Shown in pieces: positions 49,385-52,358 of a DNA stretch of 64,000 nt. The translations under genes and the position numbers were made by a program. Position 1 is the first letter of the stretch. Every line of letters begins with the position of its first letter. This stretch comes from a virus: positions 124,001-188,000 of the IMG/VR virus record IMGVR_UViG_3300028676_000005; one strand, given 5' to 3'. A model generated the notes under the pieces. That model saw only the letters and a list, made by a program, of their open reading frames with translations, ran no database searches and had not been told where the DNA came from.

Positions 49385-49416
49385 CTACCCCACTCCCTTT
49401 TAAAGGAGTGAGGTAG
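49385..49416 (-). terminator. Terminator for capsid transcript
   Basis: On the minus strand CTACCTCACTCC pairs with GGAGTGGGGTAG (one wobble or mismatch) around a short A/T loop and is followed by TTGATTCC and a run of eight T. The same T-run with GCATTTT follows the terminator at 62885-62922. It lies about 60 bases beyond the end of the proposed frameshift product. Confidence 0.75.
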
Positions 49417-49445: not shown

Positions 49446-49535
49446 GCCTCATCGACAGTGTCAAGAGGGGTACTAGGCAGGCCCCTCTAACAGACCGTAG
49501 TAGGTCGATGGAAGGATGAGGCCTACGGGTTTCCC
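49446..49535 (-). promoter_or_regulatory. Candidate programmed -1 frameshift signal
   Basis: Heptamer G GGA AAC (49535-49529) is in the capsid reading phase as X XXY YYZ, two codons before the TAG at 49525-49523. Six bases later GCCTCATC (49522-49515) can pair with GATGAGGC (49453-49446). Inside lies a 7-bp stem AGAGGGG/CCCCTCT (49488-49482 with 49470-49464), giving a branched structure. Lambda G/GT uses the related G GGA AAG. The elements are seen; activity is inferred. Confidence 0.6.
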
Positions 49536-51721
49536 GCTTCGATGGCGCCTTGGATGCCAGCCAGAGCTGGAGCCAGACCTTCGATGGCGATGCGCTGTTT
49601 TGCCAGCTTGGTCAGCAGACCGTTATCACCCAGGAACTCTGCGGCGTCAGTGATCTTCAGCGAACCGATGATCGGGTTGAGCGCCCAGTGTTTGTAGGTA
49701 GGGATGGTCATGACCACACCGAAGTCCTGCTGATCACGAGTCACGTTACCTTGTACAACGATGTTCTCTTTCGAGACAACGACGCCGACACCGCCCAGTG
49801 GGTTGATGTAATCGGAAGTCGAATCGTTTTGGGTAACGATCAGGATCTCACCGATCTGGCTGTCGAAGTTGGTTTCGACGGCTTTCATGGTGGTCAGAGG
49901 ACCCAGGGTACGAGCGTCGCCCAGACGGAGCAGGAAGCGGCACAGGTTCTGGTGAGCGATGATGTTCCACTTCGGAGAAGTAGCACCGCCGTATTCGGCG
50001 ATCGCGGCGATACCGGACTTGGTAGTCAGGGCCGAAACGATGTCGCTGATTTCGTTGGTGAACACGGCGCAGACTGCTTCCAGCACACCGGTGCTGTCTT
50101 GGGTCGATACGACGTCGGCCAGGGTGATCTTGCGGTTTACTGCGGCAGCTTGCACGTAGTGCATGCCTGGCAGGACGTTGGAACCCTGGTTGTTCGAGAC
50201 CACAGCATGGCCGTCGATGGAGGTGATGTACGCCAGGTGCTCAGCAGCCATGTCGAACGCTTTACGCGAGCACTGGTTGTTGATCGCCACCGACATTTGC
50301 TCGATCGCGTAGTCCAGGGAGCCCTGGTTCACGTCTTGCTTGTCGATTGGGTATTTCACAGACACCGGGTCGCCACGTTTGACGGACAGGTGCTTGTCGG
50401 CATCGAACACTTCGATACGGTAGCCGAAGTTACCGCGCGAGTTGTTGGTCACGTTACCGGTGATTTCGATACCGGATACGGAACCGTTGGTCAGGGTGCG
50501 GAACAGTGATTTCTGAGCGTCATCAGCGCGATCACGAGTGATCACGTTACCGGTTGGGATGTGCTGGAGAGCAGTGATCGAAACCTGGCCGCCGTTCAGG
50601 CGCATGACGTTCTTTTGACGCTGGTAGTTGCCGTCCATCGACACGTCCAGCAGAGGGCGGTAGCCAGCTGCTTTCAGATCGGCGAACAGGGTCTCACCAA
50701 CTTCCAGGCCGTCTTTGTCCTGTACAGCAAAACCGTTGTGACGGTTCAGCAGGATGGCCATTTTGCGGTCATCGGACGATTGGCCGTTCGAAGTCGGGAT
50801 GAAGGTGTTGTTCGACATCGCCTTGGTGTTGATGAAGAACGTCTTGACAGTGCCCTTGATAGTAGCGGTCAATTGCAGAGTCTGACCGGTGAGCGAGTTG
50901 GACTCGATCTCGTCGGTAGCGGTGTACGGACGCTGGCCAGGGGTTTCGCACAGGCCCAGGAAGTTCGGAATGACGCTCGGAACTTTCAGGAAGCTGGTCA
51001 GGTGGTTTTCGCGGCCCAGGGCATCAGCTTCCATGTAGGTAGCGGTCCATGGGGTACGGTCGGCGGCTGGAACGAACAGCTCGCGGGTGTCGTCGGTGTC
51101 CGACTCAGGGTACACAGGGTGTACAGCCAGGGCGGATTCGGCGAACATTTTGCCGGAACGCAGCAGACCGAAGATCGGTTGCAGTTCGGAGGCGGACTGC
51201 CAGGCGCTGTTGCCGTAAGCGTAAGTACCCAGACCAGCGGCACGAACCTTCATCAGGACGCCTTCGTCTTCGTAACGAACGGTCAGGGTGGCGAACAGTG
51301 CTTCGGCGCCAGGAGTCTGCAAGTGGCTCTGGGCGTTGAGGGCCATGTTCAGAGCTTTGACGGTGGTTTCCGAGCCTTCCCAGTTCTGCATCGAGAAGCC
51401 TTCCAGGCCATCGACGGTACCGTAGAAGCTTTCGGTACGTTCAACGATGTCTTTCAGCTCGCTCGGAGCAATGTTGGTGGTACGGCCGAACGAGGATTGG
51501 AACGCGGCGAAGTTCTTGTCGTTCAGACGAGTGGCCAGCATGCCATTCAGCGATTGGCTCTCAGCGCCTTGAACACGAGCCAGGTCGAACTTGCTCGAGA
51601 AGCCAGAAAAGTTTTCCTGGCCTTGCACCGCGGTCAACGATTCGTTCTTCAGTGCATCAGCGATCAGCTGAACAAGGTTACCCTCGTTCTTGAGACCCAT
51701 CTTAATCTGTTTGTAAGCCAT
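49473..51721 (-). CDS. Proposed -1 frameshift product of capsid gene, 749 aa
   Basis: Translation would follow the capsid frame to the Asn codon at 49531-49529, shift by -1 on G GGA AAC and continue with PVGLILPSTYYGLLEGPA before TAG at 49475-49473. The product would have residues 1-731 of the capsid protein plus 18 new residues, instead of stopping after one further Pro. The new tail contains PSTYYGLL, matching IPRTYYGLL in the repeats of the 762-aa protein at 37156-39444. By analogy with T7 gp10B this would be a minor capsid form that carries a surface motif. Peptide evidence is lacking. Confidence 0.5.
49523..51721 (-). CDS. Major capsid protein (phiKZ gp120-like)
   Basis: The 732-residue protein starts MAYKQIKMGLKNEGNLVQLI and has a length close to that of phiKZ gp120. 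Its sequence looks like a giant HK97-type capsid, with a helical N-terminal region to about residue 140 and a long beta-rich, Asp/Asn/Gly-rich domain after it. Motifs GAE at 52-54 and 138-140 resemble the S/A/G-x-E sites cut by phiKZ-type prohead protease. The gene has much higher GC and a strongly biased codon set compared with neighbours, as expected for the most abundant virion protein. It has an AT-rich palindromic leader, an AAGGA ribosome site, a frameshift signal at its end and a terminator at 49385-49416. Confidence 0.75.
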   Translation of the reverse strand: MAYKQIKMGLKNEGNLVQLIADALKNESLTAVQGQENFSGFSSKFDLARVQGAESQSLNGMLATRLNDKNFAAFQSSFGRTTNIAPSELKDIVERTESFYGTVDGLEGFSMQNWEGSETTVKALNMALNAQSHLQTPGAEALFATLTVRYEDEGVLMKVRAAGLGTYAYGNSAWQSASELQPIFGLLRSGKMFAESALAVHPVYPESDTDDTRELFVPAADRTPWTATYMEADALGRENHLTSFLKVPSVIPNFLGLCETPGQRPYTATDEIESNSLTGQTLQLTATIKGTVKTFFINTKAMSNNTFIPTSNGQSSDDRKMAILLNRHNGFAVQDKDGLEVGETLFADLKAAGYRPLLDVSMDGNYQRQKNVMRLNGGQVSITALQHIPTGNVITRDRADDAQKSLFRTLTNGSVSGIEITGNVTNNSRGNFGYRIEVFDADKHLSVKRGDPVSVKYPIDKQDVNQGSLDYAIEQMSVAINNQCSRKAFDMAAEHLAYITSIDGHAVVSNNQGSNVLPGMHYVQAAAVNRKITLADVVSTQDSTGVLEAVCAVFTNEISDIVSALTTKSGIAAIAEYGGATSPKWNIIAHQNLCRFLLRLGDARTLGPLTTMKAVETNFDSQIGEILIVTQNDSTSDYINPLGGVGVVVSKENIVVQGNVTRDQQDFGVVMTIPTYKHWALNPIIGSLKITDAAEFLGDNGLLTKLAKQRIAIEGLAPALAGIQGAIEAGNP

Positions 51722-51723
51722 GG

Positions 51724-51772
51724 AAGGAATTCCTTTTTAAGCGTTGGACGTTTAACAAATATATATATTTGT
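51724..51772 (-). promoter_or_regulatory. Palindromic leader of the capsid gene
   Basis: Two perfect palindromes precede the capsid ATG: AAGGAATTCCTT at 51724-51735, which includes the ribosome site AAGGA, and an 18-base AT-only core ACAAATATATATATTTGT at 51755-51772. The second lies within a very AT-rich stretch, a likely late promoter region. A role as protein-binding site or translation switch is possible but not shown. Confidence 0.45.
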
Positions 51773-51809
51773 GTATCTACTACACATAACATACATATTG
51801 AAACGAGGT

Positions 51810-52358
51810 TTAAGGGTTTTGATTGCCCAGCAGTTTGTAAACTTCAGCCATGGTGAACTCACCTACTTTACTGTCCACAATCGCACCGAAATGAGATTCC
51901 ATGAAACCGTGAACATGCAAGATGGCCTCCAACAATGCACCAGAGAATGTTAGCGCAGAAGCCTTACTCCAGCTGGGCGGTGTTGTTTGGTTCTCGTCGT
52001 TAATAACAACCACGAGTTGATTACTTTTGAAAGAGCTGTATCCAAAAGATGTTGCGTCGGTAAACGCGGCGGATAAGCTTTTACTGTCGACACTATTAAA
52101 TGCCGCTTTTAACATCTCACCTTCATAATCTTTACTGAAGATTAAATCTGGGTCGAGCAAAGCAACACCGAGTTCTTTTGCAGCGCGGTATTGCATAGAA
52201 ATGATTTGAGCAATTTCACCGTAAGTTGCCTTTTGATGATATGTCTCAATCGTCGATAAGTTGCTCAACGGAATGCCGACCTTAGCCAACAACTTAACCA
52301 TAGAGTTGGTCAAGAAGAATACTTCGATCGGGGAACCGTTAGGTGTCCTGAGAATCAT
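51810..52358 (-). CDS. Hypothetical protein, 182 aa
   Basis: The function is unknown. The N-terminal half is helical with a short hydrophobic stretch (IEVFFLTNSMVKLLAKVGI). The middle is Ala/Leu/Ser-rich, and the C-terminal half has SYSSFKSNQLVVVINDEN-like strands (the exact segment is FGYSSFKSNQLVVVIN) followed by two helices. It is transcribed away from the helicase gene across a 28-base divergent gap. Confidence 0.68.
   Translation of the reverse strand: MILRTPNGSPIEVFFLTNSMVKLLAKVGIPLSNLSTIETYHQKATYGEIAQIISMQYRAAKELGVALLDPDLIFSKDYEGEMLKAAFNSVDSKSLSAAFTDATSFGYSSFKSNQLVVVINDENQTTPPSWSKASALTFSGALLEAILHVHGFMESHFGAIVDSKVGEFTMAEVYKLLGNQNP

Follow-up and report, generated by a model that had tools for sequence, protein, structure and literature searches.

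The question raised by this locus is whether translation of the major capsid gene of an EL-like jumbo phage always ends at its stop codon, or whether a programmed -1 frameshift adds a short extension to some capsid subunits, and what such an extension would do. The window, meaning the whole stretch of DNA that was analysed, comprises 64,000 nucleotides (positions 124,001 to 188,000) of the 229-kb virus record IMGVR_UViG_3300028676_000005. Its capsid protein matches the Pfam family PhiKZ_MCP (PF25620; E 1.7e-129, 433 bits against a family cutoff of 27), to which phiKZ gp120 also belongs, as well as PHROG 3231 (major head protein). The gene closes with the codons GCG GGA AAC CCG TAG, and its zero-frame product ends in ...GAIEAGNP*. 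Antisense to it, on the plus strand, lie two open frames of 319 and 431 codons (49550-50509 and 50561-51856), which are probably a by-product of capsid codon usage.

The preliminary description of this DNA had pointed to a slippery heptamer in the correct phase, a spacer, a stem enclosing an inner hairpin, and an open -1 frame, and each of these elements was found in its place (Table 1). The frame described as open for 18 codons encodes 18 residues, and the predicted product is 17 residues longer than the zero-frame protein (749 versus 732 aa). When the 116-nt region is folded whole and in isolation, the minimum-free-energy structure differs from the described stem (z -2.0). Once the slip site and spacer are left out, which mimics the region covered by a stalled ribosome, the described stem becomes the minimum-free-energy structure, at -32.5 kcal/mol and z -4.0. 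The terminator-like hairpin further 3' is absent from the automatic terminator scan and rests on reading of the sequence; similar hairpins were spotted by eye in relatives. An Rfam scan of the frameshift region gave no match above chance, and a search for tRNA genes in the window found none.

Table 1. Features of the capsid frameshift region and of the tag-bearing genes (window coordinates unless a locus is named)
Feature	Position	Strand	Remark
Major capsid protein gene, phiKZ gp120 / EL gp78 family	49523..51721	minus	732 aa
Slippery heptamer G GGA AAC, X XXY YYZ phase	49529..49535	minus	sequence and conserved position in relatives
Overlapping second in-phase heptamer A AAC CCG	49526..49532	minus	yields identical -1 peptide
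Spacer CCGTAG, 6 nt	49523..49528	minus	contains zero-frame stop TAG 49523-49525
Putative stimulatory RNA structure, outer 8-bp stem and inner hairpin	49446..49522	minus	
Outer stem arms GCCTCATC / GATGAGGC	49515-49522 / 49446-49453	minus	
Inner 7-bp hairpin arms AGAGGGG / CCCCTCT	49482-49488 / 49464-49470	minus	
-1 frame extension PVGLILPSTYYGLLEGPA*	49473..49529	minus	stop 49473-49475; C 49529 read twice
Tag motif P-S-T-Y-Y-G-L-L inside capsid extension	49488..49511	minus	
Intrinsic-terminator-like hairpin with T run	49385..49416	minus	separate, 3' of frameshift structure; read by eye
phiKZ gp128 / EL gp104 family protein, 762 aa	37156..39444	minus	three zero-frame C-terminal tag copies
EL gp147 family protein, ~200 aa	L067:7022-7636, record bases about 106525-107136	minus	ends in tag

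This genome has 295 open frames that are 150 codons or longer. In 8 of them an in-phase heptamer of any kind falls within the last 8 codons, and the -1 frame is also open in 6 of the 8. Heptamer and open frame alone are therefore weak evidence, since 6 of 295 long open frames show both. It is conservation among relatives that excludes chance. Close capsid homologues were drawn from a viral contig collection and from phage records, while a search for relatives in a genome-contig collection found none. The resulting comparison set consists of 38 EL-like capsid loci whose 3' end is intact; they represent 31 distinct sequences, EL, RisingSun and FishSpeaker among them, with capsid identities to the window's protein of about 45-75%. 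In one Pseudomonas phage record, vB_PQ1 (PQ516283; L008), the capsid, helicase and polymerase genes are each split into several annotated pieces, the picture given by a sequence that contains numerous indel errors.

A -1 frame extension is present at the equivalent place in all 38 loci (31 of 31 distinct sequences). Its pattern is roughly [P/A]-x-[T/A]-[YDNF]-Y-G-x-L, in which Y, G and L are invariant in every distinct sequence and their codons vary synonymously, with four codons used for G and six for L. The invariance of YGxL in the face of synonymous codon change indicates that selection acts on the -1-frame protein. The extension reads RRSVSPANYGRLEYPELP in EL, RLIPSTNYGRLG in RisingSun, SINPYYYGNLGTDVNQDVGV in FishSpeaker and PIMLPGTYYGVLDPED in locus L027, and the predicted capsid/extension junction of RisingSun is ...TDPNRLIPSTNYGR. 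Both heptamer and extension are absent from 14 of 14 distant phiKZ-like capsids, a set that covers Vibrio, Photobacterium, Klebsiella, Raoultella, Aeromonas, Erwinia AH04, Kosakonia, Shewanella SXP01 and OBP phages, with phiKZ itself outside it. As judged from the genomes compared, the frameshift cassette characterises the EL-like clade.

The slip site follows the same distribution. An in-phase X XXY YYZ heptamer is found in 28 of the 31 distinct sequences. The commonest form is C CCA AAC/T; two separate lineages have G GGA AAC, and A AAA AAC occurs a single time. The capsid tree implies two or more gains of G GGA AAC and one of A AAA AAC, the simplest ancestor being C CCA AAC; the X triplet changes as one unit despite spanning two codons. 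Four relatives that lack the first heptamer have A AAC CCG as their sole heptamer, with a spacer of 6 nt. The remaining three sequences (L023, L024, L040) read GTA ACC CCG TAA and contain no X XXY YYZ, yet retain the extension and the structure; here a single-codon slip from CCG to CCC before the stop may perhaps operate.

Downstream of the heptamer, a stem begins 4-10 nt (mostly 4-8) away in all 29 folded heptamer-bearing sequences. The 6 nt of the window fall within the distance of about 5-9 nt that a -1 frameshift signal calls for. The stems of the relatives are unrelated in sequence and enclose about 52-77 nt, and the mean structure z over 32 sequences is -3.4, a signal carried by the fold as a whole and by its constant placement, since single longest-helix scores often fall inside the shuffle range. 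The position of the stem follows the heptamer and not the stop codon, relative to which it varies from -4 to +7. This is particularly clear in EL, where the slip site lies four codons upstream and the zero-frame stop codon falls inside the stem. RisingSun, FishSpeaker and others, eight distinct or near-identical loci in all, have a -1-frame stop directly next to the heptamer, which confines the shift to the few codons from the heptamer to the zero-frame stop. The genome also encodes tRNA-Asn(GUU), tRNA-Trp and tRNA-Asp (L062:11207-12561), of which tRNA-Asn would read the slip-site AAC. A phage tRNA-Asn as a required helper was rejected, as tRNA genes are missing altogether from 13 of the 16 records examined, and the tRNA of EL is a tRNA-Thr.

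Together, these comparisons establish, at the level of sequence, a slip signal, a downstream structure and coding selection on the extension, and a programmed -1 frameshift at the end of the capsid gene is almost certain. Loss of the heptamer or extension from relatives had been named beforehand as one of the observations that would speak against it; instead, heptamer, stem position and -1 peptide are all conserved in the clade. Hairpins do end many phage late mRNAs, and the structure might accordingly be read as a 3' UTR stability element or terminator beside a -1 frame that is open by chance, a coincidence for which up to 6 of 295 open frames offer precedent. This account is very improbable, given that the -1-frame amino acids are conserved with synonymous change, that the structure is keyed to the heptamer rather than to the stop, and that a terminator-like hairpin stands separately downstream.

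Translation of the tag peptide as a separate mini-protein, by re-initiation at the capsid stop, has a still slimmer chance of being correct. A -1-frame ATG, GTG or TTG does lie near the stop in L014, L027, L031, L034, L036, L040 and L043, but most loci, the window included, have no such codon ahead of the tag, and re-initiation would leave the retention of the heptamer without a reason. The least probable reading is the sequencing or assembly error that the preliminary description had itself raised, in which a single-base indel would merge the frames and the extension would truly belong to the zero frame. The same arrangement recurs in 31 distinct sequences, including the GenBank isolate genomes of EL, RisingSun and FishSpeaker, with differing stop codons and distances, which excludes this alternative.

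What the extension does is suggested by its motif, which had already been singled out as recognisable and turns out to be more telling than that, as it recurs in two further protein families that these phages encode. One is the family of phiKZ gp128 and EL gp104, whose member in the window belongs to PHROG 3222 and is a homologue of phiKZ gp128, a protein with solved structures. The tag copies of the window's protein, picked up by scanning the window for the motif, read IPDTYYGIL, IPRTYYGLL and LPKTYYGVL. EL gp104 likewise carries three copies, spelt NYGRL or DYGRL. Most members of the family are tagged, with one to four copies, and tandem copies are separated by short linkers. Exceptions are the FishSpeaker gp104 homologue, which has no tag, and the proteins of L074 and L082, which stop short of the tag region at 702-703 aa and show no tag in the other frames. 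The pattern P-x-T-x-Y-G-x-L is also absent from four gp104-family homologues outside the clade. The outgroup homologue gp045 of Klebsiella phage Miami (L178) has a lone SSYGLL near its end (...KSSSYGLLPMFFTLTNSE), perhaps what the tag arose from or what is left of it; its clade, however, is without the capsid frameshift.

The other family is that of EL gp147. A scan of the rest of the genome returned one further C-terminal tag match, IPDTDYGQL, on a protein of ~200 aa. In a viral contig search this single sequence had no match; with the family alignment as query, matches were obtained. The only phage records in which the family was found are the 13 of the EL-like clade, and the tag is the best conserved stretch of its alignment. 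RisingSun gp197, gp205 and gp206 are tagged as well, and gp206 has been detected by mass spectrometry in crude lysate, which is not proof of a virion location (PMC6034870). The spelling of the tag is phage-specific across families, with YGRL in all three EL proteins. An AlphaFold model of EL gp147 has a pLDDT of 90 (about 90 near the tag), and a fold search with it gave no significant PDB match and only phage relatives, among them the tag-bearing RisingSun gp197. The ~200-aa gene adjoins a GroEL-like chaperonin gene both here and in EL; a chaperonin link, for which adjacency was the sole ground, was set aside, the two genes being far apart in RisingSun. The gp104 and gp147 tags sit in the zero frame, and an origin by frameshifting was likewise rejected for these two families.

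The motif comparison thus identifies one tag common to the capsid extension and to the gp128/gp104 and gp147 families, and the balance of evidence leans toward a docking motif that would bind a common partner. The main competitor accepts the frameshift and regards YGxL as a structural tail, for instance one that stabilises pentamers or packs against the capsid subunit next to it. A small structural addition would be expected at the capsid C-terminus, and in the model of the ~200-aa family the tag has fairly high confidence (pLDDT about 90) and may pack on its own protein. The motif nevertheless ends two other families, in one of them in tandem with short linkers, the arrangement one would expect of short linear interaction motifs, and a purely structural role is rather unlikely, if considerably less so than the readings that dispense with the frameshift. 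With a probability of roughly 0.9, a frameshift cassette combined with a shared, putative docking tag is the best explanation of the whole, its docking part being more likely than not.

Frameshifts of -1 or other kinds have been described for the major capsid genes of T7, T3, A2 and Listeria phages (PMC5009743). In T7 (10A/10B) and T3, as predicted here, ribosomes shift by -1 close to the 3' end of the major capsid gene and yield a minor, C-terminally extended form, although these phages and their capsid lineage are unrelated to the EL-like group. In T7 the shift relies on a G_GU type P-site together with a distant CCCC located in the terminator, whereas the site described here is a canonical X XXY YYZ with a stem about 6 nt on. 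The T7 extension is not an Ig-like domain, unlike that of T3 (PMC5009743), and in Lactobacillus phage A2 the frameshift-extended major head protein is reported to serve as another component of the capsid (Garcia 2004, cited through PMC5009743). The A2 extension is a folded Ig-like domain; the present one is a short linear motif whose 18 residues are too few for a domain of the T3 or A2 kind, and it differs from T7 and T3 in being built around a tag common to other phage proteins. The Listeria phages A118, A500 and PSA also shift within their capsid genes, PSA by +1 and not by -1 as here. Heptamers of the G GGA AAN type lie near the end of the upstream gene in lambda G/GT and other tail-assembly chaperones. 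Lambda G/GT is a tail assembly gene with a long second domain, unlike the capsid cassette.

The preliminary description knew of no phiKZ-like capsid frameshift, in agreement with the open literature, in which none was found; subscription journals were mostly uncovered and priority is uncertain. The RisingSun lysate mass-spectrometry paper makes no mention of a frameshift. Capsid frameshifting itself is already known from T7, T3 and A2, and what would be new is the short tag extension. As far as the open literature shows, this would be the first frameshifted capsid in phiKZ-like jumbo phages.

In the proposed mechanism, most ribosomes would terminate at TAG and release the 732-aa capsid protein. 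The RNA structure 6 nt downstream would hold a minority of them at G GGA AAC (CCG), where they would slip back one base and produce the 749-aa form ending in PVGLILPSTYYGLLEGPA, presumably a minor virion protein. A point against this is that X XXA AAC is a weak slip site in E. coli. A low-frequency shift would tag a minority of capsid subunits, while the gp104 and gp147 families would be tagged constitutively; one common partner would recognise all tags, and the shift rate would set the number of tagged subunits per head. The unrelated T=27 phage phiKp24 has 1615 major capsid subunits (PMC9700779). If EL-like heads resemble such a T=27 head (~1,600 subunits), each would display tens of tags at a shift rate of a few per cent, a figure that serves as illustration and not as evidence. 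Taken further, the EL-like jumbo phages may use one C-terminal docking code, P-x-T-x-Y-G-x-L, placed directly or in repeats on some proteins and frameshifted onto a minority of the capsid, with one phage-encoded adaptor joining the head to other components and the spelling varying with the receptor; this extended proposal has about even odds.

The finding predicts a capsid form that is unannotated in the well-studied phages EL and RisingSun and that can be looked for in mass spectra already recorded. A new use of frameshifting is suggested as well, in which a short linear motif, and not a folded domain, is dosed onto a repeated structure. The presence of the identical motif on other proteins further suggests that these phages supply a built-in key to the partner of the tag.
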